Shown one piece after another: positions 515-18,956 of a stretch of 18,956 nt of DNA (position 1 is the first letter of the stretch; each line of letters starts with the position of its first letter). Both the position numbers and the translations under genes were made by a program. The DNA comes from Gammaproteobacteria bacterium (GTDB lineage Bacteria > Pseudomonadota > Gammaproteobacteria > SZUA-229): positions 1 through 18,956 of the forward strand of contig DAOWLL010000001.1 in assembly GCA_030641945.1 (NCBI GenBank), written 5' to 3'. Below the pieces are notes generated by a model that worked only from the letters and a program-made list of their open reading frames with translations, had not been told where the DNA came from and did not search any database.

Positions 515-529
515 TCAGGCACCATAGTC

Positions 530-1852: not shown

Positions 1853-1971
1853 CCGAACAAATACCCGTAATTATCCCGGCACCGAAAACAGGATCAGGAA
1901 GCATGAGCGGGGACGAGCTTCATATTTTGGGTCTTCACCCCATCAAGTGGGTTAAACAGATAAAAAGCTTT

Positions 1972-1989
1972 ACCACAGAGGCACAGAGG
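1972..1989. repeat. CACAGAGG tandem repeat unit, dispersed family
   Basis: The stretch reads ac followed by two perfect copies of CACAGAGG (ACCACAGAGGCACAGAGG). A related unit occurs at the right end of the window (18914-18940). Such CACAGAGG-type intergenic repeats are seen in many environmental bacterial genomes. Here it lies six bases before the long inverted repeat at 1996. Confidence 0.65.
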
Positions 1990-1995
1990 TTTTAG

Positions 1996-2263: not shown

Positions 2264-2332
2264 ACAAATATTCCCTGTGTGGTCAGGGTGTTATCATGGG
2301 TCTACCCGCTGTCTTTGGGGAAGATCAAAATT

Positions 2333-4426: not shown

Positions 4427-4583
4427 TGATACCCGGCATGTATTGAATATCGCCATTATCCTGGTAGTTTGCCATGAATCTTGCACCGGGTATGGTTATG
4501 CTGTTATATGGTGAGTGCCATTCTGTGCTGCAGATGGCGACATCGAACGCAGCTTTCTGCAATCATTTCACAGGTCCAGCAAT

Positions 4584-4793
4584 ATGGATATCAAATCATA
4601 TCAAGATGAGGTTCAAGGTTTTGTTGATCGCGGCAACTACCATGCTGCGTTCAATATTGCGCTGTCAGGGCTGAATGCATGCCAGAGAGAGCATGATCAA
4701 ACTGGTGTTGATCAATGCCTCAGTGTTATCGAGGGAGTGATACAGCATCTTGTTGAAGAATTTGGCAGTGAAGAATATCTTGAGCAAGAATAA
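4584..4793 (+). CDS. Small helical protein of unknown function
   Basis: The protein is 69 residues, acidic and probably all-helical (MDIKSYQDEVQGF...), with one pattern (RGNYHAAFNIALSGLNAC) reminiscent of a single TPR hairpin. The ATG at 4584 is preferred over an upstream in-frame ATG at 4515, because the intervening residues look non-coding and a weak AGG precedes 4584. The stop TAA at 4791-4793 runs straight into a strong terminator, which supports it being a real transcribed gene. It is divergent from the lipoprotein gene and convergent with EF-G. I do not recognise the family. Confidence 0.55.
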   Translation: MDIKSYQDEVQGFVDRGNYHAAFNIALSGLNACQREHDQTGVDQCLSVIEGVIQHLVEEFGSEEYLEQE

Positions 4794-4822
4794 AAAAAGG
4801 CCGGTTTGACCGGCCTTTTTTT
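4792..4822. terminator. Bidirectional rho-independent terminator
   Basis: A perfect 14-bp stem has arms AAAAAAAGGCCGGT (4792-4805) and ACCGGCCTTTTTTT (4809-4822) with a three-base TTG loop. A-run and T-run on opposite sides let it work on both strands, ending the small gene at 4584-4793 and the elongation factor G gene coming from the right. Confidence 0.95.
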
Positions 4823-4840
4823 GTTGCAGCTGAACGCGTG

Positions 4841-6925
4841 TTATTTCTTGCCTTCGCGCTCCAGTGTTTCCTTGATGACTTCTTCAGCCACGTTTTTCGG
4901 ACATGGCATGTAGTGCAGGAACTCCATGGAGAACTGGCCGCGGCCAGATGTCATGGTGCGCAGGTCACCAATATAACCGAACATTTCGCTCAGCGGGCAT
5001 TCGGCCTTGATGCGTACACCGGTAGTGCCAGGTTCCTGTGACTTGATCATGCCGCGGCGGCGGTTCAGGTCGCCAATGACATCACCAACGTTGTCATCAG
5101 GTGTATACACATCCACCTTCATGATCGGCTCCATCAACTGTGGACCCGAATTAGGCATAGTCTGGCGATATGCTGCTCTGGCAGCCAGCTCATAAGCAAC
5201 AGCAGATGAGTCAACCGGGTGATAGGCGCCATCGGTCAAGGTTACCTTGAAGTCAAGGCAGGGGAAGCCCGCCAATACGCCACGCACCATGCTGGCTTTA
5301 AAGCCTTTATCAACGGCCGGCCAGAATTCACGTGGTACGTTACCGCCGGTAACGACAGATTCAAACTCGTAGCCGCTGCCGGGCTCGCCGGGTTCGATTA
5401 TATAGTCGATCTTGGCGTACTGACCTGAACCACCGGTCTGTTTCTTATGGGTGTAGCTGTCTTCAGTGCGCCTGGTAATGGTTTCGCGGTAGGCAACCTG
5501 TGGTTTACCAACATCGACTTCAACACCATGGGTACGCTTCAGAATGTCGATCTTGATGTCGAGGTGAAGCTCGCCCATGCCTTTAAGGATGGTTTCACCC
5601 GAGTCCTGATCGGTTTCAACACGGAAGGACGGGTCTTCCTGAATCATCTTACCTATAGCGATGCCCAGTTTTTCAGAAGCGCCTTTGTCTCTAGGTGCAA
5701 CGGCAATGGAGATAACGGGATCCGGAAATACCATGGGCTCCAGCGTGGCTGGTGCTTTCGGGTCGCACAGTGTGTGCCCGGTCTGTACGTTCTTCATACC
5801 AATCACGGCTACGATATCACCGGCCTGTGCGCCACTGAGTTCGATGCGCTCATCGGCATGCATTTCTACAATACGACCGATACGTTCTGTTTTACCCGTG
5901 AATGTATTCAGCACGGTATCGCCTTTGTTCAGCGTGCCTGAGTAAATACGGATGAATGTCAGTGCGCCAAAACGGTCATCCATAATCTTGAACGCCAGTG
6001 CGCGTAGTGGCTTCTCCGGGTCAACGATGGCGAATTCACCGGTTTCATTTCCTTCATCGTCGGTTTCAGGCTGTGGCTTGACTTCGGTCGGGCTGGGCAG
6101 GTAATCAACAACCGCGTTCAGCACCGGCTGTACACCCTTGTTTTTGAAGGCTGAACCGCAGTAGGTCGGGAAGAAATCCAGGTTGATTGTGCCTTTGCGG
6201 ATACAGCGTTTGATGTCTTCGATAGCCGGCTCTTCTCCTTCCAGGTATTTTCCCATCAGCTCATCATCCTGCTCAACAGCCGCTTCGATGAGTTTTTCAC
6301 GCCATTCTTCAATAGCATCAGCCATATCAGCAGGTGGCTCCTGTAGTTCATAGTTTTCAGGTAAACCAGAGTCATCCCAAACCCATGCTTTGCGTGTTAG
6401 CAGATCCACCACGCCGGTAAAATCCTCTTCAATACCGATAGGCAGCACCATCACCAGCGGGTTTGCGCCCAGTACGTCTTCAACCTGCTTCACAACGCTG
6501 TAGAAGTCAGCGCCAATACGGTCGAGCTTGTTGACGAAAATAATACGAGCAACTTCGGATTCGTTGGCATAACGCCAGTTGGTTTCAGACTGGGGCTCAA
6601 CACCGCCAGAACCACAGAAAACGCCAACACCGCCGTCGAGCACTTTCAGCGAACGGTATACTTCGATGGTAAAGTCAACGTGTCCCGGGGTGTCGATAAT
6701 GTTCATGCGATGTTCATTCCACTCGCAGCTGGTTGCAGCAGACTGAATGGTAATACCGCGCTCAGCTTCCTGTTCCATGAAGTCAGTAGTGGCCTCGCCA
6801 TCATGCACTTCACCGGTCTTATGGATTTTGCCGGTCAGTTTCAGGATACGTTCCGTGGTCGTTGTTTTACCGGCATCCACGTGTGCGAAGATACCTATGT
6901 TTCTGTATTTGCTTAATTCAGTCAT
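4841..6925 (-). CDS. fusA2: Elongation factor G, second paralogue (EF-G2 type)
   Basis: This 694-residue translational GTPase starts at the ATG at 6923-6925, which gives the expected N-terminus [20 protein letters not shown]; an upstream extension to 6979 is not conserved-looking. GTPase motifs are all present: AHVDAGKT (14-21), RGITI (56-60), DTPGH (78-82) and NKLD (132-135). Domains II-V follow with the typical [12 protein letters not shown] near the end. The wording of the motif regions ([47 protein letters not shown] as split stretches) matches the Pseudomonas/Vibrio second EF-G more than canonical FusA. The gene also lies outside any str operon (no rpsL, rpsG or tuf nearby). It catalyses ribosomal translocation and/or recycling; bacteria with two EF-Gs may divide these tasks. 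It appears monocistronic and ends at a strong terminator. The start is preceded by a weak AGGA only 2-3 bases away. Confidence 0.9.
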
Positions 6926-7236
6926 TGTCCTGGTTGCTCTATGCAGTTCAAAATTAATCGGTTGGCGTCCCTGGACCACGCTACAGGTAGGCTGGCACTG
7001 CCAGTCAGATACGCCTATTTCAGCCCATCATTTCGACATGCCCGGCAATACCGATAGCGTGCCAAAATCAGGAGGGCGGATTATATACTAAATGGAGAAT
7101 ATATACGGCAGTTCTTGAACTGTTTTGTTGCCGCAAACAGGAACCCGAATGGGGGTGTAATTCAAAGGAAATCAGACAATTAGGGCGTTTTTCGTTATTT
7201 TTTTTAGAGCTGACCAGTTGGCAGCCTCGTCACCCG
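6926..7236. other. 311-bp intergenic leader of fusA2 with -10-like box and palindrome
   Basis: No gene is seen. On the minus strand a TATAAT sits at 7085-7080, about 155 bp upstream of the fusA2 start, but I see no matching -35 at 16-18 bp. A near-palindrome CAGTTC-TT-GAACTG lies at 7109-7122, upstream of that box, and could be an operator. Around 7192-7206 there is a T-rich run without a clear stem. The downstream 140 bp would be an unusually long 5' leader if the -10 box is real. Confidence 0.4.
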
Positions 7237-7572
7237 TCATTGTTGAAATATCTCAAATTCGGCTTCGGATGTTGTTTTATCGATGCTGATCAGCATCTCA
7301 CAATAGGCATTTTCAGCTATGGGATCATCGCCACAGCCGCAACCGACGATGATTTCAGTGAAAAAGATGCCAACTTTAGACTGAATGCTGTTTTTGTTCT
7401 GTTTCGCATTTATAACGGTGACCGAGATATTGCTGTCATCGACAAAGCCGCCTCGGGTTGTGCCTTTTTCCAGCGGAAGGGTGCCTGCTGGCAGATTCTC
7501 GAGTTCGCGCTTTAATGCTGTTTCGAAGGAGCCGGATTGGAATTCCTGCAGGGCATCGAGAAATTTTGGCAT
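7237..7572 (-). CDS. Conserved hypothetical protein with GCGCGDDP motif
   Basis: This 111-residue soluble protein has no signal peptide and no membrane segment. It has a Cys pair in VGCGCGDDP (Cys78, Cys80) and a third Cys at 91, in a region that alternates like beta strands (VGIFFTEIIVGC, YCEMLISID). I have a vague memory of small proteobacterial proteins with a similar GC.C.DDP segment but cannot name a function. The three Cys could bind metal, which is an inference. It begins 23 bp after the stop of the PGPGW membrane protein, on the same strand, so the two are probably co-transcribed. The ATG at 7572 lacks a strong Shine-Dalgarno. Confidence 0.65.
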   Translation of the reverse strand: MPKFLDALQEFQSGSFETALKRELENLPAGTLPLEKGTTRGGFVDDSNISVTVINAKQNKNSIQSKVGIFFTEIIVGCGCGDDPIAENAYCEMLISIDKTTSEAEFEIFQQ

Positions 7573-7595
7573 GACATTAGTCTGTTGAAAGAATC

Positions 7596-8015
7596 TTAAC
7601 GGTTATAAGTTTTCAGTGGCATATGACCGGCACGCTGACGAAGCTTGTTGATGGTATTCAATACCGGGGCTCGCATGATCACCCAGCGCTCAAGCCGGTA
7701 TTTACCCGGGAAATTGATAAACATGATCCCTATCAGGATTGTCAGAATGCCTTGTCCGGGCAGCACCAGCATGGCAATGCCGAGAATAATAAAGATGTAG
7801 CCGAGTATGTTTTTTGCAGCTAACAGTGACCACCGTATAACGGGATGCTGATGGGCCCAGGGTTCCCAGCGGTGACGCTTGTTTTCGGCGAAGTAATCTT
7901 CAGGGATCCTGATCACAAGCACTGGCACGAGCAATAGTGTAGCTGCAAAGCTGACGATGGAAAAAACGGCCATGTACCAGATTGTTGCTTCGTCTAATGT
8001 TATCCAGTCAAGCAT
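7596..8015 (-). CDS. PGPGW-family small transmembrane protein
   Basis: This 139-residue inner-membrane protein has a first membrane helix at about 14-36 and a second hydrophobic region at about 66-102. The second region contains LVLPGQGILTILIGI, followed by NFPGKYRLERW, the pattern of the PGPGW putative transmembrane family (PF09656), and a basic C-terminal tail. Molecular function is unknown for the family. It is divergent from the doxX gene, with 110 bp between the starts, and leads the two-gene run with the GCGCGDDP protein. Confidence 0.75.
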   Translation of the reverse strand: MLDWITLDEATIWYMAVFSIVSFAATLLLVPVLVIRIPEDYFAENKRHRWEPWAHQHPVIRWSLLAAKNILGYIFIILGIAMLVLPGQGILTILIGIMFINFPGKYRLERWVIMRAPVLNTINKLRQRAGHMPLKTYNR

Positions 8016-8057
8016 GTTATTGTTTGCGAACGGATGGGAGATAATGCATCGGGTGCA

Positions 8058-8063
8058 TATAAT
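8058..8063 (+). promoter_or_regulatory. Possible -10 box of doxX, overlapping a small palindrome
   Basis: A consensus TATAAT lies 63 bp upstream of the doxX start. It is immediately preceded by an ATGCA-TCGGG-TGCAT inverted repeat (8044-8058). There is no good -35 at standard spacing, so it may be a regulated promoter or chance in an A+T-rich spacer. Confidence 0.35.
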
Positions 8064-8125
8064 ACAATACTATCAGGCTGCCCAGATTTCAGGCTGTGAC
8101 AAAAACCATTTCCGGGAGGGATGCA

Positions 8126-8530
8126 ATGAACGAGCTATTACATAACGATGCACTGGGTAAATTAATCCTGCGTCTTACGGTAGGCATTCTCATGCTGTTT
8201 CATGGTATTGCCAAGATAATGAATCCGGGCACAGTCGATTTCATTGGCGGTGCACTATCTGGTTCAGGGTTGCCATCGATCCTCGCTTACGGTGTATACG
8301 TCGGAGAAGTGATTGCACCATTAATGATTATTGTTGGTGTCTACTGTCGCTATGGGGCGATTATTATCGTGGTAAATATGTTGTTTGCTATTTTGTTGAT
8401 GCATACCGGTGATATATTCGCATTGACTGACCACGGTGGCTGGCGGCTGGAGTTGCAGGGTTTTTATTTGTTTGGCGCTCTTGCCATTATGCTTCTCGGC
8501 AGTGGCAGGCATGCTGTTAAACCAGACTGA
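8126..8530 (+). CDS. DoxX family membrane protein
   Basis: This 134-residue protein has four hydrophobic stretches. The start at 8126 is chosen because GGGAGGG (8114-8120) lies five bases upstream; a longer frame from 8096 has no ribosome site. The early GKLILRLTVGILMLFHGIAKI segment and the later YGVYVGEVIAPLMIIVG are characteristic of DoxX/DoxD-like proteins. These were first linked to thiosulfate:quinone oxidoreductase but are mostly uncharacterised in bacteria, where some protect against redox stress. No thiosulfate-oxidising partner is nearby, so substrate and role remain open. It is transcribed alone or with the AsmA-like gene 90 bp downstream. Confidence 0.85.
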   Translation: MNELLHNDALGKLILRLTVGILMLFHGIAKIMNPGTVDFIGGALSGSGLPSILAYGVYVGEVIAPLMIIVGVYCRYGAIIIVVNMLFAILLMHTGDIFALTDHGGWRLELQGFYLFGALAIMLLGSGRHAVKPD

Positions 8531-8546
8531 TTCTGGATATTTTTTG
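8522..8546 (+). terminator. Weak terminator-like hairpin after doxX
   Basis: CCAGA (8522-8526) and TCTGG (8532-8536) form a five-pair stem with a five-base loop that includes the doxX stop codon; a short T-rich tract follows (8537-8546). The short stem makes it inefficient at best, so read-through into the AsmA-like gene is possible. Confidence 0.35.
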
Positions 8547-8620
8547 TATAGGTTATAAGTAAGCTTGCGCCATACTTAAATGAGTGCATTCCGGTATAGA
8601 ATTTAATCAAGGGCGCTAGA

Positions 8621-9427
8621 ATGAAAAAAACCATATTCGCAATCATTGTCATACTCATGATCGCCATTGCAGGTGCGATATTTTATGTATTCAGCAACCT
8701 GGATGCCATTGTAAAGGCGGCAATTGAAGAATTCGGTAGCGATGCAGTTAAAACATCTGTGCGAGTTGAAAAAGTCGCAATCAGGTTAACCGAGGGTACG
8801 GCTGTAATTAATGGATTGACCGTTGCTAACCCGGACGACTTTTCTTTGCCACATGCATTTTCTCTGGATGAAGTTGCAGTAAGTATTAATCTTGAAAAAA
8901 CAAACAAGGAAATGATCGCTATTGATGTAATTAGCATAGTTGCACCGCAGGTATTTTATGAGATTAATGCGCAGCGCCAGGGCAGTCTTAATATACTCAA
9001 GGAAAATCTGGGTATGGGTGGTGGAGCATCTGCCGATGCACCTGCCGGTAGTGGAACACCAGCAGCATCAGAAGCAGCGCCGGTTATACTTGATATTGCA
9101 CGTTTTGAATTTAGAGACGCGAGCCTGCATGCCAGGGTAGTACCACTGCAAGACAAGACCTATGATCTCAAGCTTCCCGCGCTGGTATTATCTAATCTCA
9201 GTGGCACACCCGAACAAATGTCCAGACAGGTGCTCGACAGGCTTATTGATCATGCGAAGAAGGTGATCCAGGTACAGGGGCTGGATAAGGAGCTTGCAGA
9301 AATAAAAGCCAGGGCGCAGCAAAGAATCGATGAGGAAAAAGCAAAACTGGAACAGCAAGCCGATGATCGCATCGATGAAGAAAAGCAAAAAACAGAAGAC
9401 AAGCTGAATAACCTGCTTGGCAGGTAA
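8621..9427 (+). CDS. AsmA/DUF748-like periplasmic protein with C-terminal coiled coil
   Basis: This 268-residue protein has an N-terminal membrane anchor (about 4-25, KKTIFAIIVILMIAIAGAIF). A beta-rich segment (about 45-128) follows with the pattern of AsmA/DUF748 proteins: a hydrophobic rise to GLTVANPDDFSLPHAFSLDEV, then IVAPQVFYEI. A Gly/Ala/Ser/Pro-rich linker spans 131-153, a second beta segment about 155-195. The tail is a charged helix (about 222-264) with a 15-residue repeat centred on two RIDEEK motifs (235 and 250), probably a coiled coil. AsmA-like proteins are tied to lipid transport and envelope homeostasis; this one is much shorter than TamB or AsmA. The start has GGGCG upstream. 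It is followed by the 9496-9567 palindrome. Confidence 0.7.
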   Translation: MKKTIFAIIVILMIAIAGAIFYVFSNLDAIVKAAIEEFGSDAVKTSVRVEKVAIRLTEGTAVINGLTVANPDDFSLPHAFSLDEVAVSINLEKTNKEMIAIDVISIVAPQVFYEINAQRQGSLNILKENLGMGGGASADAPAGSGTPAASEAAPVILDIARFEFRDASLHARVVPLQDKTYDLKLPALVLSNLSGTPEQMSRQVLDRLIDHAKKVIQVQGLDKELAEIKARAQQRIDEEKAKLEQQADDRIDEEKQKTEDKLNNLLGR

Positions 9428-9495
9428 CAAACCATTTAACGCTGTGTCAATCGTTAGTTTGGTTGATTGTTCAAACCAACATTGAAAATATTTTT

Positions 9496-9567
9496 GCCGC
9501 TAAAGACGCAAAGGGCGCAAATATAATTGTTGTATATAAACTTTGCGCAATTTGCGTGTTTCGCGGC
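9496..9567. repeat. Palindromic GCCGC-AAAGACGCAAAG repeat
   Basis: The left arm at 9496-9521 and right arm at 9542-9567 are 26-bp inverted copies with four mismatches (GCCGCTAAAGACGCAAAG... against GCCGCGAAACACGCAAAT... when reverse-complemented), around a 20-bp A+T-rich loop. The arms contain the short internal period CGCAAAGGG/CGCAAA. It belongs in style to the CACAGAG and CAGATGAACA repeats elsewhere in the window. It sits between the AsmA-like gene and the convergent ParA gene and could act as a transcript-end hairpin for both. Confidence 0.75.
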
Positions 9568-9586
9568 TAGTTAATGGTTTATTTTA

Positions 9587-10282
9587 CTAGTTCAGCACAG
9601 TCGGTTCACGGTTTTCAAGCCAGTTGACAACCTGTTGCCAGGCGTCGATATCCTGCTGGCTTGATCTGGAATTCAATTCATGCACGCCGAGACCTTTTTC
9701 TGAGGATGTCACGTAATTCTGGGTCTCGCGTAACTGGGCAATGACAGGTATGTCCAGGGCGCGCAGAAATCTTTCAAGCCCGCGAAAGGATAGAGTGTTG
9801 GGTTTGATGCGATTGCAGATGATACAAACACGGGTGCGTTGTGGGCGGATTTTTGCAATCAGAAAAAGATCGCGAATAAAGTCGGCTGTTGCATGGATAT
9901 CGATGGATGAAGGTAGTACAGGTATCAGTATGGTGTCAGTGTCGCGTAATTGATCGATCAGGCCGAGGCCGGTAAGTCCAGCAGGTGTATCGATGATGGC
10001 GCGTTCTGTTTCCTGTGGCAGACGTAACTGGAAACTGCGGGTGACTGTAGAGTTCCTCACCGGGTACGCTGCGATACCATGAAGTTGTGCAGCATCCGAT
10101 GGCCTGGATTTCAGCCAATACATGCTTGATCCCTGTGGATCATAATCCAGTAGAGTCGTATTCAGGTCCAGCTTTGCATAGGCGCTGGCTAAATTGGTCG
10201 CGACAGTTGTTTTACCACAGCCGCCTTTTACGTTAATAATGGTAATTCGCTGCAGGCGGGTGTCTGATCCTGCTGATGCCAT
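9587..10282 (-). CDS. Orphan ParA/MinD-family P-loop ATPase
   Basis: The 231-residue protein has a deviant Walker A, KGGCGKTT (19-26) with the signature Lys19, the switch-like DYDPQGSS (46-53) and a Walker B IIDTPAG (96-102). These define ParA/Soj-type ATPases that position DNA or protein cargo by dimerising on the nucleoid. A ParB or cargo-adaptor partner would normally be adjacent, but none is in the window: the neighbours are a repeat and a divergent VOC gene. It is shorter than plasmid ParA with no N-terminal helix-turn-helix, closer to chromosomal orphan ParAs. Its cargo cannot be read from context. Confidence 0.85.
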   Translation of the reverse strand: MASAGSDTRLQRITIINVKGGCGKTTVATNLASAYAKLDLNTTLLDYDPQGSSMYWLKSRPSDAAQLHGIAAYPVRNSTVTRSFQLRLPQETERAIIDTPAGLTGLGLIDQLRDTDTILIPVLPSSIDIHATADFIRDLFLIAKIRPQRTRVCIICNRIKPNTLSFRGLERFLRALDIPVIAQLRETQNYVTSSEKGLGVHELNSRSSQQDIDAWQQVVNWLENREPTVLN

Positions 10283-10387
10283 TTTTCATCCATCGGTCAG
10301 TGATGCACTTGTTATAGGATGGTATGGGTGATAACACAAAAACGCAAGCCCCCCGCAAAGACCGGCTCAACAAGAGGGTAAAAATAC

Positions 10388-10792
10388 ATGGGTAAGCCAG
10401 TTACACGTGGTGTGCACCATGTCGGGCTATCCGTCACTGACCTTGATGCCAGTTGCAGCTTTTTTTGTGAATTGCTTGGTTGGGAGAAGGTGGGCGGTAA
10501 TTCTGCTTATCCTGCCGTATTTGTTTCCGATGGCTCGGTGATGGTTACTCTCTGGCAAGCCAAACAACCGCCGACAGCGAAACCTTTCGATAAGAACAAC
10601 AACGTAGGCCTGCATCATCTGGCGATCAGGGTGACAGATCTCGATACGCTGGACACGATTTATCAGAAGCTGGCGGCAGCTGAAAATGTCGACATCGAGT
10701 TTGCACCCGAGCCTTTGCGTGAGGGTCCGACAATACACATGATGTGTTATGAGCCGGGCGGGATTCGTATTGAACTTATCGTGCCAGCCTGA
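10388..10792 (+). CDS. VOC-family (glyoxalase/dioxygenase fold) protein
   Basis: The 134-residue protein is built of two beta-alpha-beta-beta-beta halves: RGVHHVGLSVTDLDASCSFF at 7-26 and VGLHHLAIRVTDLDTLDTIY at 73-92. His11, His77 and Glu129 (in IRIELIVPA) are in the positions that bind the metal in VOC enzymes. GAGGG at 10374-10378, nine bases upstream, supports the start. The family covers glyoxalase I, dioxygenases, fosfomycin and bleomycin resistance proteins. Nothing here distinguishes them, so no substrate is assigned. Confidence 0.8.
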   Translation: MGKPVTRGVHHVGLSVTDLDASCSFFCELLGWEKVGGNSAYPAVFVSDGSVMVTLWQAKQPPTAKPFDKNNNVGLHHLAIRVTDLDTLDTIYQKLAAAENVDIEFAPEPLREGPTIHMMCYEPGGIRIELIVPA

Positions 10793-10909
10793 CCTCAAAG
10801 CTTCAATTCACGCATCATATTGATTATTACGCGGTATTGATGTTCGTGTAAACTAGGCTGGACTAATTAAAAACCTGCGCACTTAATAATAATTCTGGAG
10901 AATGCTTCG

Positions 10910-12274
10910 ATGGATTCTGGTATTAAGCCAAAACTTTCCGAGAATAATGATGATTCTTCAGTTAATGAAGAAATATATGCTATCAAGCTGACTAAACGAA
11001 GCAAGTCACCTATGTTTCATTCGCGCGTCACCCGGTTCGATCACTGGCTGGCACGAACAATGTTAGATGTGGTCGGCAATCCTAAAACCAATCTGCGTCT
11101 CTGGGACGGTATAGATGTGACCACACCGGTTGATGATCCGGTTGCTGTAATTCTTTACTGCAATCGTCTGGCTATGTGGAAAACCATAATCAACCCTGAA
11201 TTGCACTGGGGTGATCTTTACTGTAACGGCCAGCTTGAATTCGACGGTGATATGGCCAGGTTCCTGGAAATTATCTACCGTAATCTCAACAGTAATGGAA
11301 AAGGCGGTTTGTTGCGCCGTTTCATGGTCTGGCTTGGTCATCGTCGTATTGCAAACTCGCATGCCAGGGCAGAAGAGAACATCCATCATCATTATGATAT
11401 CGGTAATGATTTCTACAGGCTGTGGCTGGATACCGAGGAGATGCAATATACCTGTGCCTATTTCCCCGATCCGAACATGAGTCTTGAAGATGCACAGGTC
11501 AGCAAGCTGCATCACGTATGCCGCAAGCTGCAACTTAAACCAGGCGATACAGTCGTCGAAGCAGGTTGCGGCTGGGGCGGGCTGGCGCGATTCATGGCAA
11601 GGCATTATGACGTCAACGTCAGGGCTTATAATATTTCAAAAGAGCAGGTCAGCTATGCACGGCAACGTGCCGAAGCTGAAGGCCTGTCAGACAGGGTTGA
11701 GTATGTTCTCGATGATTATCGCAACATAAGCGGCGAATATGATGTATTCGTTTCTGTTGGAATGCTTGAGCATGTAGGCAAGCGGGATTATCCTGTAATG
11801 GGAAAAGTGATTGGCCGTTGCCTGAAACCTGAAGGCCGCGGCTTGATCCATACCATCGGCCGCATCAGCCCGGGCCCGATGAACGCGTGGATCGAGCGCC
11901 GTATATTTCCAGGCGCGTATCCACCCAGCCTGAGTGAGATGATGGAAATCTTCGAGCCGAACCAGCTGGCGGTGTTTGATGTTGAAAACCTGAGACTGCA
12001 CTATGCAAAAACACTTGAGCACTGGGTGCAAAGATTTGAGCAGCACAGGGAAGCAATTGAATTAATGATGGATGAGGAATTTGTCAAAGCCTGGAGCCTT
12101 TACCTGGCTGGCTCCATTGCTGCGTTTAGAGTGGGCGAATTGCAGTTATACCAGGTTGTGTTTGCCAGAGATTCTAATAACGATCTGCCATGGTCACGTG
12201 ACCATCTTTGTAGCAACACATCTGACAACAAGGTCAAGCTAAGTATTGTGCATGGTGAACTCGCTGATGCTTGA
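10910..12274 (+). CDS. cfa: Cyclopropane-fatty-acyl-phospholipid synthase family methyltransferase
   Basis: This 454-residue SAM-dependent enzyme acts on double bonds of membrane-phospholipid acyl chains at the membrane surface. The SAM motif VEAGCGWGG is at 216-224. Residues important in E. coli Cfa appear conserved: Cys182 (QYTCAYF), Glu287 (GMLEHVG), His314/Ile316 (IHTIG) and Tyr365 (HYAKTL), the last ones forming the bicarbonate site. The signature IFPGAYPPSL follows. The lipid-binding N-terminal domain is about 70 residues longer than in E. coli (382 residues in total there), the first 35 being polar. GGAG at 10897-10900 supports the start. The last bases overlap the start of the flavoprotein gene, so the product may not be the end of the pathway: cyclopropane is likeliest, a methyl-branched or other derivative is possible. 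Confidence 0.9.
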   Translation: MDSGIKPKLSENNDDSSVNEEIYAIKLTKRSKSPMFHSRVTRFDHWLARTMLDVVGNPKTNLRLWDGIDVTTPVDDPVAVILYCNRLAMWKTIINPELHWGDLYCNGQLEFDGDMARFLEIIYRNLNSNGKGGLLRRFMVWLGHRRIANSHARAEENIHHHYDIGNDFYRLWLDTEEMQYTCAYFPDPNMSLEDAQVSKLHHVCRKLQLKPGDTVVEAGCGWGGLARFMARHYDVNVRAYNISKEQVSYARQRAEAEGLSDRVEYVLDDYRNISGEYDVFVSVGMLEHVGKRDYPVMGKVIGRCLKPEGRGLIHTIGRISPGPMNAWIERRIFPGAYPPSLSEMMEIFEPNQLAVFDVENLRLHYAKTLEHWVQRFEQHREAIELMMDEEFVKAWSLYLAGSIAAFRVGELQLYQVVFARDSNNDLPWSRDHLCSNTSDNKVKLSIVHGELADA

Positions 12275-13400
12275 TGTACTCATCATAGGTGGTGGTCCCG
12301 CAGGTTCGACGCTTGCATGGGCTCTGCGCAAATCAGGGATGGATATTGCGATTATCGACAAGGAGGAATTCCCGCGGCAGAAAATTTGTGCCGGCTGGGT
12401 AACGCCAGCTGTTATGCAGGAATTGAACATAGACCTGGATGACTATGCTGATGGCCGGGTGTTGCAGCCTATAACTGGTTTTCGCATCAGCCAGCTCGGT
12501 CAAAAACAGGTGCAGTCGCATTATGCCGGCGATCCCGTCAGTTACGGGATTCGCCGCATCGAGTTTGATGACTACCTGCTGCAACGCAGTAAGGCAAAGC
12601 TATTGACAGGCAGGGCATTCAAGCGCATGGAGCGTATTGATAACGGCTGGCGTGTTAATGATGATATTAATGCAAAACTGGTGGTTGGCGCCGGTGGACA
12701 TTTCTGCCCGGTTGCACGTGCTATCGGTTCAAAAGGCGTGAGTGAAGTTGCTGTTGCTGCGCAGGAAGTCGAGTTTGAAATGACTGCCGAGCAGGCGGCC
12801 GCATCTACTATAGATGCTGAAGTCCCGGAGCTTTTTTTTACCCCGGACCTGAAAGGCTATGGCTGGATATTTCGCAAAGGGGATTTCCTCAATATTGGCC
12901 TGGGTCGAGAAGACAAACACAGGCTTTCGAGTCATGTGCAGGATTTTGTTCAATACCTCAAACAGCAGGATAAGATTCCGCAAGATATTGCCGAGAAGTT
13001 CAATGGCCATGCCTATTTGCTGTATCCGCATGCAATTCGAGATATTGTTAGCGACAACGTTATGTTGATAGGTGATGCAGCCGGGCTCGCTTACCCGCAA
13101 AGCGGTGAAGGTATTCGACCCGCGGTGGAGTCTGCGTTATTTGCGGCCCGGGTTATTGAAGACTGCCATGGTGATTATGCTGCTGCGCAGCTTCAGCCCT
13201 ATCATGAGCTGATCGAGCAACGATACGGAGAGCGTCATCCTGGGCCTGATCTGATGGAGCGTTTGCCATTAGGCATTAAGCAGCTGGTTGCTGCCGAGTT
13301 AATGAAAACCAGGTGGTTTACAAGAAAGATCGTGACTGACCGCTGGTTTTTACAATCTCATCAAGAGCCGATAAATATGCAGACGATGTCCCAGGGGTAG
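12267..13400 (+). CDS. Geranylgeranyl-reductase-family FAD-dependent oxidoreductase
   Basis: The 377-residue flavoprotein has an N-terminal dinucleotide-binding GGGPAGS (8-14), the FPRQKICAGW segment (35-44), GYGWIF (197-202) typical of the GGR substrate face, and the second FAD motif GDAAG...GEGI (269-283). GGR-family enzymes reduce isolated double bonds in isoprenoid lipids and in bacteria also act on poorly defined lipid or quinone-like substrates. The ATG at 12267 (GGTGAA seven bases upstream) is preferred; it overlaps the methyltransferase stop by eight bases. An upstream ATG at 12252 or TTG at 12246 is possible. The overlap says the two enzymes are made together. No membrane helix is evident. 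It ends 21 bp from the convergent dgkA. Confidence 0.8.
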   Translation: MLDVLIIGGGPAGSTLAWALRKSGMDIAIIDKEEFPRQKICAGWVTPAVMQELNIDLDDYADGRVLQPITGFRISQLGQKQVQSHYAGDPVSYGIRRIEFDDYLLQRSKAKLLTGRAFKRMERIDNGWRVNDDINAKLVVGAGGHFCPVARAIGSKGVSEVAVAAQEVEFEMTAEQAAASTIDAEVPELFFTPDLKGYGWIFRKGDFLNIGLGREDKHRLSSHVQDFVQYLKQQDKIPQDIAEKFNGHAYLLYPHAIRDIVSDNVMLIGDAAGLAYPQSGEGIRPAVESALFAARVIEDCHGDYAAAQLQPYHELIEQRYGERHPGPDLMERLPLGIKQLVAAELMKTRWFTRKIVTDRWFLQSHQEPINMQTMSQG

Positions 13401-13421
13401 AGTGTCAATTCCTGAGCCTGG

Positions 13422-13802
13422 TTAAAACGCTGCTGGCGGATGTTCGAATAGAACAGCGGCCCACGCAATAGCGGTAATAATAAGAGCGAATAATACTGCA
13501 GCTGAGCCCATGTCTTTGGCGCGGCCCGCCAGTTCATGATGTTCGTCGCTAATGCGATCGACTACTGACTCAATGGCAGAATTGAGCAGCTCAACGACTA
13601 ACACGAAAAGCACACTGCAAACCAGCACGGCTTTATCGAGCACTGATTCACCGAGAAAAATACCGGCAGGTATAAGCGCTGCCGCCATCCACAGCTCCTG
13701 CCTGAAAGCTGCTTCATGTTTGTAAGCTGAGCAGATGCCCTTCCATGAGTATCCCGCTGCATTAATAATGCGTTTAATTCCTGTAACACCGGTTTTCCCC
13801 AT
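13422..13802 (-). CDS. dgkA: Diacylglycerol kinase, prokaryotic membrane type
   Basis: The 126-residue protein has three membrane helices. It phosphorylates diacylglycerol released by membrane-derived-oligosaccharide or LPS-modifying reactions, returning phosphatidate to phospholipid synthesis. The active-site signature is ELLNSAIESVVDRIS (71-85) with Glu71, Asn74 and Glu78, then AGRAKDMGSAAV (92-103). Length matches E. coli DgkA (about 122). Its AGGAG ribosome site lies on the stop codon of the upstream hydrolase gene (TAGGAGAACATAATG), so it is co-transcribed with that gene nine bases away. The stop is 21 bp from the convergent flavoprotein gene. Confidence 0.95.
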   Translation of the reverse strand: MGKTGVTGIKRIINAAGYSWKGICSAYKHEAAFRQELWMAAALIPAGIFLGESVLDKAVLVCSVLFVLVVELLNSAIESVVDRISDEHHELAGRAKDMGSAAVLFALIITAIAWAAVLFEHPPAAF

Positions 13803-13811
13803 TATGTTCTC

Positions 13812-14810
13812 CTAGCCGATGTGAATCTGTTCCATAAGGTAACACAGGCAGTCCTGCCTGATGGCTCTTTCGTTGGTTGTATACATAGAGAGCGTGGCAT
13901 TCTTTTGGAGAATAATTTTTGCGTTTTCTACATCGAAGAATTCGCTGGTGACATCTTCACTGCTTTCGTTAGTGACAACAAGGTGTGCATTGCTCTCGGG
14001 ATTAAGGCCGGCAAATATAGAGCCCGTAGCAAGCTGTTCAAAATTCATTTTCTCAAGCTCGTGGCTTAGATGAATATCTGTGCTGCTATCGGTGCCCAGT
14101 GAGAATATTTCTGGTACGGTCACACGCGCGACAGTATGAAACAGGTTGATGTGTCCAGGGTGCTCAGATGATAGTTTCTCTGTGTTGAGGACTGCCTGTA
14201 AAAAACGGGTCGAATGCGTGACACCGTCTGCCTGCCCCGATTGTCCACATTCGAGTACAACCGACGGGCAAAAATCCGAAAACGCCGCAGATTGCACACC
14301 CTTGGGGCTGGTGAAATAAACCACGGTATTACCGAACATGCCGGCAAGCTGTATGCAGTGCGGACTCAGGATGTTGACACAGGCATAATGCGGGTTAAAA
14401 CCCGTGTTGTTATGAATATCAATACTGGCGAATGGCTTACGTTTGCGCATGATGTTGGAAACTGTTTTCATCATGTCTGTTTCGGCGCAGTCATCATGGT
14501 GAGTGCCGGGCCAAACGCGATTATAATCCGGTTGCAGGTCCAGTCTTCGCTGCTCAGCAGCGGCAGCTTCTACATTACCAACGAATACAGTTATGGAGCG
14601 TGGCAGCGGCTTTTCCTGATATTCTTTTAATAATCGCTGAATAGCATAAAAGCCTGTTGTCTCGTTGCCATGCAGCAAGGTGCTGATGAACAATGGTTGT
14701 TTTATTTCGCCTTCGAGATGGATTAGCGTAGGTGAGCCAAGCAAGCCGAGTAATTCGGTAGCTTCGGCTTCAAGTAAACCATCAGGCAGGATGTCGGTCT
14801 CGTTTAACAT
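13812..14810 (-). CDS. Aspartoacylase / succinylglutamate desuccinylase-like zinc hydrolase (M14 fold)
   Basis: This 332-residue protein contains the zinc ligands HGNE (His47, Glu50) and DIHNN (His133), a substrate-binding NR pair in DYNRVWPG (Asn97-Arg98) and a candidate catalytic Glu187 in VVLECGQ. This order is that of AspA/AstE-type enzymes, which hydrolyse an N-acyl amino acid or a related amide. A C-terminal beta domain follows (about 225-330). The start ATG overlaps the upstream ligase stop by one base (TAATG). Coupling to a GCS2 ligase suggests its substrate is the ligase product or a precursor with an amide-linked acyl group. A classical arginine-degradation role (astE) is unlikely since no ast genes are present. 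Confidence 0.8.
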   Translation of the reverse strand: MLNETDILPDGLLEAEATELLGLLGSPTLIHLEGEIKQPLFISTLLHGNETTGFYAIQRLLKEYQEKPLPRSITVFVGNVEAAAAEQRRLDLQPDYNRVWPGTHHDDCAETDMMKTVSNIMRKRKPFASIDIHNNTGFNPHYACVNILSPHCIQLAGMFGNTVVYFTSPKGVQSAAFSDFCPSVVLECGQSGQADGVTHSTRFLQAVLNTEKLSSEHPGHINLFHTVARVTVPEIFSLGTDSSTDIHLSHELEKMNFEQLATGSIFAGLNPESNAHLVVTNESSEDVTSEFFDVENAKIILQKNATLSMYTTNERAIRQDCLCYLMEQIHIG

Positions 14811-16255
14811 TATGTGTAGCTTTCAAAGTCCCATTCATGGACGGGCATATTGTGTTGTTGATTCTGATAATAGCTTTTCGTCAATAGCCGCATATCGCGG
14901 CCGTGAAGTTCGGCGAATTTACGTTGCCATTGTGTTCCTGTCTGTTCGCTTTTGATGCGCGATTCTATTATGCCAAGATAATGTTTGCTGTCAGCATCAG
15001 AAAGACCAAGCTTATCAAGCCCGGTTTCTGCTTCACCCAGCAGTCTGTTCAACACCAGTTCCTTGATGCTATGCCTGTTTCCGTCTGTCCATAACACCCT
15101 GTGATTTAAACCTACTTGTGCGGATCTGTAGAAATTATCTTTTGTTTGGGCAAAAGTTAATGCTGCTTCGGGAGGGTCAATACAGGTTGCATAGTACTGA
15201 ACCAGACCATAGTAAAAAGCGATATTCGCTATATTATCGACCATGCTGGCTGCGCTGGACATGGTGCGGTGTTCGATTCTCAAGTGAGGAGTGCCGTCGT
15301 CATCAAAGCCGATCAGCGGACGGTTCCAGCGCCATATTGTACCGTTATGCAGTCTCAGGTAGTTCAGTTTCTCAGCTGCGGTATCATAGGTTACCGGCAG
15401 CAGTACGGGGTAATGTTCGAGGTTTTCTCTGAAACATTCCAGCAGGGACTCACGGGCATACTGGCTGCCAAAGGTTACGCGGCGTATTGGACCGCTTGCA
15501 GCGCCGCCTATGCCGCCTATATCAACGGATTGTTCAAAAACGGGGATGCGTGTTTCATACCAGAGATCCTTGTTGAACATGAAAGGAGCGTTGGCGCCGA
15601 CAGTAACAAGGGGCGCCGAGAGTATCATGGACGCATTGTAATAACGCACAGCTTTATCCTGTGGCGTTTGTAGATGTACCTGTAGTGATGTTGCTGCGGC
15701 CTCGAGCATTACATCCCTGTGTTCTACCTCGAGGTGCTCATTGCCATTGATGTTCAGGCTGATGGTTTTTCCTTTACGATGTCTCAGCACCTGTTCATTC
15801 AAGGCACGATAACGGTCGAGAGAGGAAATGTTTTTCAGAGAAAGATCACTATCGGTCAGCGTTGGCAGTATGCCAATGCCAAGCATGTTGCAACCAATAT
15901 TATTTGACGATTGCTGGCACTGCTTCCATAACTGTTGCAGTTGGTTTTCGAAGTCGCTCAACAGGCTTTTATTAAATGACTGCGGATCTACATTGAGCTC
16001 AACATTGAATTTGGCCAATTCTGGAAAGATATAGGGATTGTTCGCGTGTTGAAGAAATGCTTCGTTTTGCGGGCATGGTGAAGCGTTTTTACCTATAAGC
16101 CATGCTTCCAGCTCGTAGCCTGCAACAAGTTTGTGGTTTGACAGGGAATGACTGTCAAACCAGCCGGCAAGAATGTCCGTTTCCTGTTGCAGACGTTTTT
16201 TATATTGCTGGTAGTCGGTTTTGTTAAATCGACTATATGTGATTTCTTCGCCCAT
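14810..16255 (-). CDS. GCS2-type carboxylate-amine ligase (glutamate-cysteine ligase-like)
   Basis: The 481-residue protein has a GS-like ligase fold. Features are the N-terminal strand GYELEAWLIG with the metal/nucleotide Glu48 and Glu50, NVELNVDPQSF (84-94), and the arginine-bearing HLRIEHRTMSSAASMVDNIAN (324-344), which corresponds to the RIEFR..PS..VVD region of GCS2 (PF04107). Such enzymes join a carboxylate to an amine with ATP; many GCS2 proteins do not make glutathione and act on unknown amino acids or peptides. It begins 21 bp after the murU stop and its stop overlaps the start of the zinc hydrolase. The Shine-Dalgarno is weak, which fits coupling with murU. Substrate unknown. Confidence 0.75.
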   Translation of the reverse strand: MGEEITYSRFNKTDYQQYKKRLQQETDILAGWFDSHSLSNHKLVAGYELEAWLIGKNASPCPQNEAFLQHANNPYIFPELAKFNVELNVDPQSFNKSLLSDFENQLQQLWKQCQQSSNNIGCNMLGIGILPTLTDSDLSLKNISSLDRYRALNEQVLRHRKGKTISLNINGNEHLEVEHRDVMLEAAATSLQVHLQTPQDKAVRYYNASMILSAPLVTVGANAPFMFNKDLWYETRIPVFEQSVDIGGIGGAASGPIRRVTFGSQYARESLLECFRENLEHYPVLLPVTYDTAAEKLNYLRLHNGTIWRWNRPLIGFDDDGTPHLRIEHRTMSSAASMVDNIANIAFYYGLVQYYATCIDPPEAALTFAQTKDNFYRSAQVGLNHRVLWTDGNRHSIKELVLNRLLGEAETGLDKLGLSDADSKHYLGIIESRIKSEQTGTQWQRKFAELHGRDMRLLTKSYYQNQQHNMPVHEWDFESYT

Positions 16256-16276
16256 GCTGTATCTGCTGTCAATAAT

Positions 16277-16939
16277 TTAACTCAGATAGGATCTCAGTTG
16301 TGCGAGCCGCTCAATGGTGCCAATATCAATCCACTGACCATCATAGAGCTCCCCGCTCACTTTATTCAGCTCTGATTTTTTTCTCAGGATTGGAGCAAGT
16401 GCTTTTTTCCCAGGGTTCGTATCCGCAAAAAATCCGGGGGTGTAAATACCTATGCCGCTGTAAGTCAGTTTTTTCTCACCCGTATTTTTTATCAGGCCCT
16501 GTTCAATCGCAAAATCGCCTGCCGCATTATGTTCCGGGTTATTTACCAGCACCAGGTGCGCCTCATGTTCCGAACATCGGTTTATCAGCCTGGTAAGATC
16601 GTAGTCACACCAGATGTCGCCATTAATGACTATAAAAGGCTTGTCACCCAGGTGCGGCATTGCATTGATAATACCGCCGGCTGTTTCCAGGGCTTCTTCG
16701 CCTTCATCTGTATAGGTGATGCTGAGCGAGTAATTGCTTCCGTCGCCCAGTGTTTCCCTGATCTGGTCTGCGAGCCATGAGATGTTGATAACAACATCCT
16801 TGATGCCGGCTTTGGCCAGGTTGAGCAAGTGATATTCAATGAGTCGATGTTTTCCAACCTGTATCAGCGGCTTCGGAGTGATGTCCGTGTGTGGGCGTAA
16901 GCGTTCGCCGCGGCCTGCGGCCAGTATCATGGCTTTCAT
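16277..16939 (-). CDS. murU: N-acetylmuramate alpha-1-phosphate uridylyltransferase
   Basis: The 220-residue nucleotidyltransferase makes UDP-MurNAc from MurNAc-1-phosphate and UTP, as in the Pseudomonas cell-wall recycling route that bypasses MurA. The signature MKAMILAAGRGERLRPHTD leads to TPKPL (21-25), which binds the nucleotide, and VINGDIW (104-110) with metal-binding Asp108. The start at 16939 (AGGTG about eight bases upstream) gives the family N-terminus; a longer frame from 17020 is not conserved-looking. It lies downstream of amgK with a 144-bp spacer that holds an inverted repeat, unlike the tight pairing common elsewhere. Generic hexose-1-phosphate nucleotidyltransferase is the alternative; the amgK neighbour favours MurU. 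Confidence 0.88.
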   Translation of the reverse strand: MKAMILAAGRGERLRPHTDITPKPLIQVGKHRLIEYHLLNLAKAGIKDVVINISWLADQIRETLGDGSNYSLSITYTDEGEEALETAGGIINAMPHLGDKPFIVINGDIWCDYDLTRLINRCSEHEAHLVLVNNPEHNAAGDFAIEQGLIKNTGEKKLTYSGIGIYTPGFFADTNPGKKALAPILRKKSELNKVSGELYDGQWIDIGTIERLAQLRSYLS

Positions 16940-16963
16940 TTCTGGACACCTTTCAAAAAGGTC

Positions 16964-17061
16964 TTTTTGCGTGAATACTGCGTCAGCTCCATGCTCGAAT
17001 CCTCGTGTATTGATATACACTCCGGTCCTGTGCGTGGTGCTTCCTTGTCTTCACGCAAAAA
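16964..17061. repeat. 12-bp perfect inverted repeat between amgK and murU
   Basis: TTTTTGCGTGAA at 16964-16975 and its exact reverse complement at 17050-17061 bracket 74 bp. In the amgK-murU transcript this could form a long-range hairpin in the leader of murU. The inner part also contains AAAAAG-GT-CTTTTT adjacent to the left arm (16955-16968). Function is unknown; it could tune murU expression or be chance. Confidence 0.45.
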
Positions 17062-17083
17062 TCCACTTTTTTAAAGGCATCCA

Positions 17084-18052
17084 TCAGCTCGCTTTCGGAT
17101 GTTGTAATACCGTTGATTCAAGCAGATCCAGTAACGGCTTCAGCTCATCATATTGACTGCATGTATCAATGACGTATTTTAACGTTAATGGCAAGTCGTT
17201 AAGGTACTGTGATTTTCCATCACGGTAGTTCAATCGTGCAAAGATTCCCAGTACTTTAAGGTGGCGTTGAACGCCCATTAAGTCGAACCAGCGAATGAAT
17301 CGACGCCTGTCGACAGGCAGGTCAATTGCTGTGGAGCGCAAATATTTATCCAGCCAGTGTTCAACTTTATCTCTTGGCCACTCTATATAGCAATCCTTGA
17401 ATAGAGAGACCAGGTCATAGGTAACAGGTCCGATGACTGCGTCCTGGTAGTCAATCACACCGGGATTGTCTTCATCTAACAGCATCAGGTTGCGTGAATG
17501 GTAGTCCCGGTGTACAAAAACCTGTGGTTGTTCCTGGGCTGATTCAATCAGTAAATCATATATTGAATTAATGACGGTTTTTTGTTCGTCATCCAGAGTT
17601 ATACCCAGGTGTTTGTTCAGGTACCAGGGTTCGAACAGTCCCATTTCATCATGTAATCGCTGTTTATCATAGGGCGGCAAATGATTTTGTATGCGTTGCA
17701 TATTAATCAGCGCAATTAGCGCGTCGTGGTACAGATCGTCACTGCTGTTATCATCAAGATAGTCAAGATACTGGCGATCGCCGAGGTCATCCAGCAGCAG
17801 AAACCCCTGTGCAAGATCCATAGTGATGATGTCAGGCGCGTTGACGCTGACGCTGCGCAATAGCTGAGTGATATGAATAAAAGGCTTGCAGTCTTCCTTG
17901 TCTGGCGGGGCGTCCATGACGACGAATGTCTTCCCCGTGTTTCTGTCAGTGACACGAAAATAACGCCGAAAACTGGCGTCAGCTGAGGCTGGGCGAATGT
18001 CTACCAGCTCGTGGGCTGGGATAGCGTTCAGCCAGTCCTCAAGTTGGGACAT
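17084..18052 (-). CDS. amgK: N-acetylmuramate/N-acetylglucosamine anomeric kinase
   Basis: The 322-residue aminoglycoside-phosphotransferase-fold kinase phosphorylates MurNAc (and GlcNAc) at C1 in peptidoglycan recycling, feeding MurU. It has the catalytic loop VHRDYHSRNLML (180-191, Asp183), the metal-binding IDYQDAVIGPVTYDL (Asp201), an N-lobe with a SFRRYFRV segment (27-34) and LLLDDLG (85-91). The ATG at 18052 is chosen with purine-rich AAGAGAG upstream; a TTG at 18076 in frame gives eight more residues. Leader of the amgK-murU-GCS2-hydrolase-dgkA run. In pseudomonads the pair neighbours lptD, here it is divergent from a dehydrogenase gene. True aminoglycoside resistance is unlikely given the MurU partner. 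Confidence 0.88.
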   Translation of the reverse strand: MSQLEDWLNAIPAHELVDIRPASADASFRRYFRVTDRNTGKTFVVMDAPPDKEDCKPFIHITQLLRSVSVNAPDIITMDLAQGFLLLDDLGDRQYLDYLDDNSSDDLYHDALIALINMQRIQNHLPPYDKQRLHDEMGLFEPWYLNKHLGITLDDEQKTVINSIYDLLIESAQEQPQVFVHRDYHSRNLMLLDEDNPGVIDYQDAVIGPVTYDLVSLFKDCYIEWPRDKVEHWLDKYLRSTAIDLPVDRRRFIRWFDLMGVQRHLKVLGIFARLNYRDGKSQYLNDLPLTLKYVIDTCSQYDELKPLLDLLESTVLQHPKAS

Positions 18053-18141
18053 TCTCTCTTGGCTTTGTTGGCTCAATTAAACGGAATCCGTCATTAGTAT
18101 AGAATGTGCGGCATTTTATCAGTCTTGTGAGAATCTTCCGA

Positions 18142-18903
18142 ATGAAAAATCCTGTTGTTGTTGTCGGCATCGGTGAAATCGGCAGCGTCTTTGCGCGTGG
18201 CTTATTGCGTTTGGGTCATCCAGTATACCCCGTTGTTCGTGGTGTAGAGATGGCTGAGATAGCCAGCCGGGTTGCCGAACCGGAACTGGTCGTGATCGCG
18301 GTCGCCGAAAAAGATATCCAGGCTGTTTTGCAGAAGGTGCCGAAATCCTGGCGCGACAGGCTGGTTCTGTTGCAAAACGAATTACTGCCTGATGACTGGA
18401 TAATGCACGGTCTCGATCCAACTGTAATTTCGGTGTGGTTTGAAAAGAAAAAAGGCATGGATTCAAAAGTGATCATTCCGTCACCGGTATTCGGCAAGCA
18501 TGCGCAACTGGTTGCCGATGCGCTGGCCTCTATTGATATTGCTACCAGTGTGCCTGGCAGCGCTGAAGAATTACTGTTTGAGCTGGTGCTGAAGAACGTT
18601 TATATCCTGACAACGAATATTTCAGGCCTGGAAACCGGCGGAAGCGTAGGTGAACTTTGGTCGGAACATCAGGAAGTTGCGACACAAGTGGCTAATGAAA
18701 TTATCCAGTTGCAGCAGAAACTGACCGGGCAGTCATTGAATGCCGGGCAATTAATCGAAGGCATGGTGCATGCGTTTAACGGTGATCTAGAGCACGGATG
18801 TATGGGCCGCAGCGCACCGGCCAGGCTGGAACGCGCGCTCAAGCTGGCAGATGAGCATGGCCTGGATTTGCCCAGGTTGAAGACAATTGCCAGTAAGGTT
18901 TAA
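18142..18903 (+). CDS. Ketopantoate-reductase-like NAD(P)-binding oxidoreductase
   Basis: The 253-residue protein has an N-terminal Rossmann motif GIGEIGS (9-15) after a VVVV strand. The AEPELVVIAVAEKD strand (45-58) and VLLQNELLP (75-83) echo PanE/ApbA. A helical C-terminal half carries LVLKNVYILTTN (148-159), where Lys151 could match the catalytic Lys of ketopantoate reductase. It is shorter than PanE (about 300), so true ketopantoate reduction is unproven; a distant NAD(P)-dependent dehydrogenase is safer. The start at 18142 is preferred over 18106, as the first twelve residues of the longer frame are not family-like. Divergent from amgK with 90 bp between. Confidence 0.6.
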   Translation: MKNPVVVVGIGEIGSVFARGLLRLGHPVYPVVRGVEMAEIASRVAEPELVVIAVAEKDIQAVLQKVPKSWRDRLVLLQNELLPDDWIMHGLDPTVISVWFEKKKGMDSKVIIPSPVFGKHAQLVADALASIDIATSVPGSAEELLFELVLKNVYILTTNISGLETGGSVGELWSEHQEVATQVANEIIQLQQKLTGQSLNAGQLIEGMVHAFNGDLEHGCMGRSAPARLERALKLADEHGLDLPRLKTIASKV

Positions 18904-18913
18904 AAAATATTTA

Positions 18914-18940
18914 GCCACAGAGGGTACTGAGTACACAGAG
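18914..18940. repeat. CACAGAG-type dispersed repeat unit with central near-palindrome
   Basis: The unit GCCACAGAGGG...ACACAGAG holds two CACAGAG copies separated by GTACTGAGTAC, itself an inverted repeat around one base. It starts ten bases after the stop of the dehydrogenase gene and matches the 1972-1989 CACAGAGG pair in style. The window ends 16 bases later, so its partner arm, if any, may lie outside. Confidence 0.6.
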
Positions 18941-18956
18941 TTTTATGTTGTTAGAT

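Follow-up and report, generated by a model that had tools for sequence, protein, structure and literature searches.

Pairing an amide ligase with a hydrolase is an already known idea. In ergothioneine synthesis, the GCS2 ligase EgtA and the hydrolase EgtC, which strips gamma-glutamyl groups, belong to one pathway, and a comparative-genomic paper on amidoligases was reportedly published by Iyer and co-workers in 2009. Other described enzymes of related fold include the YbdK-type carboxylate-amine ligases (1r8g, 1tt4; TIGR02050), the plant and yeast glutamate-cysteine ligases (GCLs; 2gwc, 3ig5; TIGR01436), and the AstE, aspartoacylase, and DoeB deacylases. Here we analyze a stretch of 18,956 nucleotides (the window; contig DAOWLL010000001.1, positions 1 to 18,956, of the gammaproteobacterial assembly GCA_030641945.1, lineage SZUA-229) in which a putative amide ligase gene, LIG, is followed by a putative zinc hydrolase gene, HYD, behind homologs of the N-acetylmuramate (MurNAc) recycling genes amgK and murU. 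Our literature search found no description of the LIG–HYD pair; a prior mention in the 2009 amidoligase survey is possible. That LIG and HYD form a genetic unit is well established, and we consider the chances about even that they constitute a make-and-unmake (or make-and-trim) module for a gamma-glutamyl-type conjugate.

LIG and HYD are both present in 100 of 274 genomes spread over the class; four contain only LIG, three only HYD, and 167 neither, so that about 38% of the sampled genomes hold LIG or HYD (104 and 103 of 274, respectively). The genomes with only LIG are G068, G079 (a 33-residue end piece), G108, and G182, and those with only HYD are G093, G214, and, weakly, G167, whose match is a RimK-linked paralog. 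Besides that of the window, neighborhoods were taken from 91 of the 104 genomes with LIG, and from the three HYD-only genomes. In 80 of 91 testable class-drawn loci, the two genes share a strand and HYD follows LIG within 400 bp (a locus with under 1 kb of downstream sequence was counted only where the genes are adjacent); 56 of 65 families have one or more such loci. By a stricter count, HYD is less than 250 bp from LIG in 78 of the 90 class-drawn loci with at least 1 kb downstream, and in 74 of 77 such loci from a named set, comprising the best 80 of 583 relatives. The two sets overlap, so their counts must not be summed. These counts derive from hidden Markov model positions, while neighboring genes come from codon-model gene calls. 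As for the LIG genomes left out of the neighborhoods (G067, G079, G088, G098, G110, G123, G164, G208, G211, G215, G238, and G259), HYD is within about 150 bp of LIG by search coordinates in 11 of them, all but G079.

The association extends beyond the class. A search of 299 genomes of the phylum detected LIG in 16, of which three are near chance (19–21 bits) and two were already in the class set; in all 11 remaining genomes, seven of them from other classes, HYD adjoins LIG. Eight loci encode LIG and HYD as a single continuous open reading frame (ORF) of 807–844 amino acids. Seven of these fusions are in the LIG tree, five tightly clustered and two in a second, distant clade, making at least two fusion events likely; the eighth (L048) is outside the tree, and its HYD part lacks about 36 residues of the model. 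The LIG and HYD trees have correlated distances (r 0.77 over 155 loci); in the 81-locus subset with MurU, r is 0.72 for LIG–HYD, 0.68 for HYD–MurU, and 0.59 for LIG–MurU. The preliminary description of this DNA had suggested looking for conserved adjacency across gammaproteobacteria, and had named as the contrary outcome a pair adjacent only here; the pair is instead adjacent in most loci. Two records titled Halobacteria archaeon (L059) and Nitrosomonas sp. (L050) also hold the pair and are probably mislabelled or mixed bins.

The predicted fold of LIG is a GCL/GS-like catalytic fold, nearest to YbdK and to eukaryotic and plant GCLs. It matches the plant/yeast type over near full length (463 residues aligned to 3ig5), while it is about 100 residues longer than the YbdK type, with 14–15% identity in structural alignment. 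Residues G46, E48, E50, E86, R326, E328, and R330 are invariant in 85 sequences, and we take them to include metal-binding acidic residues and an ATP-site arginine. E328 and R330 align weakly with the E and R of the plant-type GshA EMR motif (two-sequence target; hhalign probability 54%, E 1.3e-4), although the overall sequence relation to these ligases is barely detectable, and they are not paired with a hydrolase as LIG is. Searches of solved structures with LIG, as single sequence and as profile, returned no true relative; the viral protein rows among them are chance matches. Against PF04107 (GCS2), LIG scores 16.9 bits, under the curated cut-off of 21, and it gave no match in a PF04107 search of the window's genome. 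PF04107.19 is nevertheless assigned to 120 listed LIG relatives in a precomputed table, in which some relatives carry PF03074, placing LIG at the borderline edge of the family. The preliminary assignment as a GCS2-type ligase thus stands on fold and remote similarity, not on a curated cut-off. The YbdK model TIGR02050 (cut-off 176.4 bits) is not listed for LIG, and the fusion L071 reaches only 27.3 bits.

The fold and the PF03074 assignments would also suit a local thiol cycle, in which gamma-glutamylcysteine would be formed by LIG, as a second ligase of the ordinary kind, and split by HYD as its amidase. We regard this as quite improbable: the window's genome (86% complete) encodes a canonical GshA of another family (PF04262, 544 bits) on a separate contig (C334), the similarity of LIG is remote for every GCL, and the recurrent neighbors, scanned by one representative each, include no thiol-metabolism family. 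The separate GshA also indicates that LIG is probably not the genome's glutathione enzyme, while leaving room for LIG to use glutamate or cysteine. An ordinary glutathione enzyme without hydrolase linkage elsewhere, the other contrary outcome named in the preliminary description, is at odds both with this GshA and with the widespread HYD adjacency.

HYD is recognized by PF24827, the AstE/AspA catalytic domain (48.6 bits; cut-off 25), and its nearest folds are the N-acyl amino-acid deacylases AstE, DoeB, and aspartoacylase. H47, E50, H133, and E187 are invariant in 69 sequences and form a His-x-x-Glu plus His pattern with a further Glu, presumably the zinc ligands and catalytic residue that this motif provides in these deacylases. 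Unlike AstE and aspartoacylase, HYD falls far under both equivalog cut-offs (for AstE, TIGR03242, 25.1 bits compared to 305.65); no DoeB model is listed for HYD, and none of the three shares its pairing with a ligase. Penicillin acylase rows in the HYD structure search were dismissed as chance. Based on these folds and motifs, LIG likely forms an amide bond and HYD likely cleaves one. By eye, neither N-terminus has an obvious signal sequence, which fits a cytosolic pair.

Hydrolases of this family type also occur with a different ligase. All ten weak HYD matches in the class search (E 3e-8 to 4e-7; L197–L206) adjoin a RimK match; nine weak matches from the phylum search fall outside this count. 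RimK comes first in nine of the ten loci, with gaps of -44 to 283 bp, and eight of the ten genomes also hold LIG and HYD. Two of these pairs were scanned against NCBIfam: RimK is an S6-L-glutamate ligase over cut-off, and the hydrolase is DoeB-like, under cut-off. As in LIG–HYD, an amide ligase adjoins a hydrolase of HYD's family type, but the ligase has an ATP-grasp fold and the hydrolase is a remote HYD paralog; one hydrolase family type is therefore paired with two unrelated amide ligases. The preliminary description had remarked that the usual RimK partner is absent, and a RimK model constructed from L197–L206 indeed found none beside LIG–HYD in 181 sources from the first two locus sets, its sole match being L180, a RimK–hydrolase locus without LIG. 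The presence of RimK in a genome is itself uninformative, as PF08443 is over cut-off in 258 of the 274 class genomes; in the window's genome its matches are weak (best 1.1e-13). Part of one paper (PMC10092738) concerns the gene context of RimK in Pseudomonas. We reject RimK as a missing partner of LIG, since it has its own same-fold hydrolase in the ten loci examined, and RimK–hydrolase looks like a parallel system.

These RimK pairs raise the possibility that the target of LIG–HYD is a protein or peptide rather than a small metabolite, just as RimK acts on ribosomal protein S6. PafA and Dop, GS-fold enzymes that act on proteins, are moreover structural neighbors of LIG. We consider protein modification improbable.

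A second parallel is found in G182, where a divergent LIG homolog (32% identical) lies directly behind a gene for an EgtC-like hydrolase of class-II amidotransferase fold. G609, of the same genus, has the same neighbor on a 3.9-kb contig without HYD, and a search of the G182 genome did not find HYD. None of the five other neighbors scanned at the G182 locus (L175) was recognized as an ergothioneine gene. In the same family, G601 has the usual HYD, while in G580, G589, G582, and G572 neither HYD nor an EgtC-like gene adjoins LIG, which is near a contig end in three of them. Because EgtC removes gamma-glutamyl groups, this neighbor is the best hint to gamma-glutamyl chemistry, though from one genus, and HYD, unlike EgtC, is an unrelated zinc enzyme. 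Together, the RimK–hydrolase pairs and the EgtC-like neighbor support the idea of a paired ligase and hydrolase.

The MurNAc recycling genes are the most frequent companions of the pair. Looking only at loci with 2.5 kb or more of upstream sequence, a MurU or AmgK gene precedes the pair, co-oriented and no more than 3.5 kb away, in 46 of the 83 class-drawn loci and 35 of the 67 named ones; by family the link is found in 35 of 63 (49 of 86 loci, including three with short flanks that count because they are linked), compared to a chance expectation well below 1% per genome. MurU itself is less than 500 bp away at 40 of 89 class-drawn loci and at 35 of 72 in the named set. Strains of Ectothiorhodospira shaposhnikovii, a cultured species met in the search for named relatives, have the pair with no adjacent MurU. 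No other gene cluster beside the pair is as recurrent in the fetched loci (clusters were compared, not every gene, and identified from one scanned representative each). Recurrent murU/amgK linkage, which the preliminary description had suggested looking for, is thus supported. MurU is over cut-off in 208 of the 274 class genomes; a MurU at the cut-off level is present in about 95 of the 104 with LIG compared to about 113 of the 170 others (Fisher p 1.2e-6; best E-values read by eye, G108 borderline, no kinship correction). AmgK–MurU recycling differs from the pair in distribution, however: many genomes have MurU but lack LIG, and the pair also turns up elsewhere.

Taken together, we favor the make-and-unmake reading, in which LIG and HYD would act as one two-enzyme cytosolic module. 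LIG would be an ATP/Mg-dependent carboxylate-amine ligase of the glutamate-cysteine-ligase superfamily, probably phosphorylating the side-chain (gamma) carboxyl of a glutamate-like substrate before coupling it to an amine; we put the odds of glutamate as the donor, via its gamma carboxyl, at roughly even. HYD would be a zinc amidohydrolase cleaving this conjugate or a close relative of it, such that a small amino-acid cap is put on and taken off, or made and trimmed, by the pair. We rate HYD acting on the product of LIG itself as somewhat likelier than a sequential use of the two enzymes. As the module is often behind amgK–murU, the conjugate may form part of the recycled cell-wall fragment pool, a substrate to which we give about one chance in four.

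Several observations weigh against this reading. LIG and HYD are apart in four class-drawn genomes (G019, G064, G240, and G005) and separated by about 1.7–2.5 kb in G122, G237, and G146, the last with LIG split over two frames; HYD was not found in the LIG-bearing class-drawn genomes G068, G108, and G182, and G121 has a second, unpaired LIG copy. LIG is under the Pfam GCS2 cut-off and all listed NCBIfam cut-offs. The EgtC-like gene of G182 scores 171.6 bits against TIGR03442, under the cut-off of 218.65, and such a neighbor is present in only two of the seven LIG-bearing genomes of its family, both of one genus (57 genomes searched). For 28 of 63 families no link to MurU or AmgK was found, and G121, G193, G236, G259, and G265, drafts 97–99% complete, contain the pair with no MurU near cut-off by best E-values. 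HYD is also found directly behind MurU in G093 and G214 (L176:7598-9270 and L177:7267-8954), with no LIG found in either genome and an ordinary GCS2 protein elsewhere. Finally, if the ligase and the hydrolase shared both a product and a compartment, they would run a futile cycle unless regulated, so the two enzymes may instead act in sequence.

In such a sequential pathway, HYD would deacylate a precursor amino acid, as AstE and DoeB do, and LIG would then couple the freed compound; alternatively, LIG would act first and HYD later trim a different bond, the metabolite being built rather than undone. A futile cycle would be avoided, HYD's closest folds are deacylases, and the single-ORF fusions would fit channelling of an intermediate. 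Conversely, the EgtC-like neighbor and the RimK–hydrolase pairs suggest hydrolases acting on the type of bond the ligase forms, and no other gene cluster of the fetched loci recurs beside the pair as often as MurU and AmgK do. We regard the two sequential versions, taken jointly, as possible but doubtful.

The families without a link and the near-complete drafts with no MurU near cut-off, together with the recurrence of gene-dense flanking blocks, also keep alive the alternative that the gene order linking the pair to murU/amgK was inherited and has no functional meaning, the pair being unrelated to the cell wall. Genes for LptD, SurA, and PdxA recur on one side at many loci, and genes for LipA, LipB, DUF493, a class IV aminotransferase, and a PBP5-type carboxypeptidase on the other. 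Set against this are the constant strand, gene order, and close spacing kept in 35 families, the excess of MurU in LIG genomes, and HYD alone behind MurU in G093 and G214. Inherited order is an evenly balanced prospect; it concerns context only and is compatible with the LIG–HYD module itself. Of the interpretation in the preliminary description, the conserved ligase–hydrolase module, its recurrent linkage, and a LIG that is not the only GCL of its genome are retained, while its envelope connection has gene order as its evidence.

In the window, the minus-strand gene order is amgK, murU, LIG, HYD, dgkA (Table 1). The ORFs, the stop/start overlap (running from 14812 to 14808, with a single shared base), the 21-base gap behind murU, and the dgkA ribosome site on the HYD stop are all as first described. 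The murU ORF opens with GTG 27 codons ahead of the NF045761 match, which begins at residue 28, and the true start is probably the ATG at 16939. A dgkA homolog directly after HYD was found only in the window and its near relatives L001–L003 among the 181 sources; its link to LIG–HYD is local and not conserved with the pair.

Table 1. Coordinates of the pair and its neighbors in the window, and of two related loci
Feature	Position	Strand	Basis
LIG, 481-residue ligase, glutamate-cysteine-ligase (GS-like) predicted fold	14810-16255	-	
HYD, 332-residue zinc hydrolase, succinylglutamate desuccinylase (AstE)/aspartoacylase predicted fold	13812-14810	-	
TAATG, one base common to LIG stop and HYD start	14808-14812	-	sequence
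Spacer from murU stop to LIG ATG, 21 bases	16256-16276	-	sequence
murU, N-acetylmuramate alpha-1-phosphate uridylyltransferase	16277-17020	-	NF045761, 296.8 bits (cut-off 250)
amgK-like N-acetylmuramate/N-acetylglucosamine kinase	17084-18076	-	NF045759, 296.9 bits, under cut-off 550; PF01636 over cut-off
dgkA, prokaryotic diacylglycerol kinase, next in run after HYD	13422-13802	-	PF01219, 122.7 bits
dgkA ribosome site, GGAG over HYD stop codon (TAGGAGAACATAATG)	13807-13814	-	sequence
LIG homolog and EgtC-like gene, no HYD alongside	L175:7965-10227		
LIG homolog and EgtC-like gene, no HYD alongside	L220:745-2996		

Other genes accompany the pair in subsets of loci. A gene of about 370 codons, mostly right behind HYD (L092:6099-7217, L043:3224-4309, and 16 more loci), looks by eye like a MurG/GT1-type glycosyltransferase; two scanned members gave no Pfam match. 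TPR-Cds6 and YkuD L,D-transpeptidase genes, assigned from one scanned member each, follow HYD in some 16 loci, almost all from the named set (for example, L056:4030-6477 and L071:3745-6030). The glycosyltransferase-looking gene (k14), a gene for a 150-residue protein (k35), and the L,D-transpeptidase genes were rejected as parts of the module, being confined to such subsets. At L098 and L112, the genes between LIG and HYD are on the opposite strand. Elsewhere in the window (10910-13400), a cyclopropane-fatty-acid-synthase-like gene overlaps a gene for a geranylgeranyl-reductase-like FAD enzyme; both clusters recur, in seven loci, and possibly represent a fatty-acid methylation and reduction pair. 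The PLD-domain protein (2333-4486) and elongation-factor-G family protein (4841-6979) are ordinary neighbors.

An adjacent, sometimes fused, and co-inherited ligase and hydrolase offers a strong handle on a metabolite or modification, and its linkage to MurNAc salvage opens a route to direct experiment. Were the product a conjugate derived from the wall, the pair would add an extra step to peptidoglycan recycling. More speculatively, and in our estimation unlikely, a large part of the proteobacteria may operate a reversible capping cycle, gamma-glutamyl or similar, on peptidoglycan-derived peptides or amino sugars. If this hypothesis is correct, LIG would cap a recycled wall fragment in the cytosol and HYD would uncap it, and the cycle would control the re-entry of recycled material into wall synthesis.

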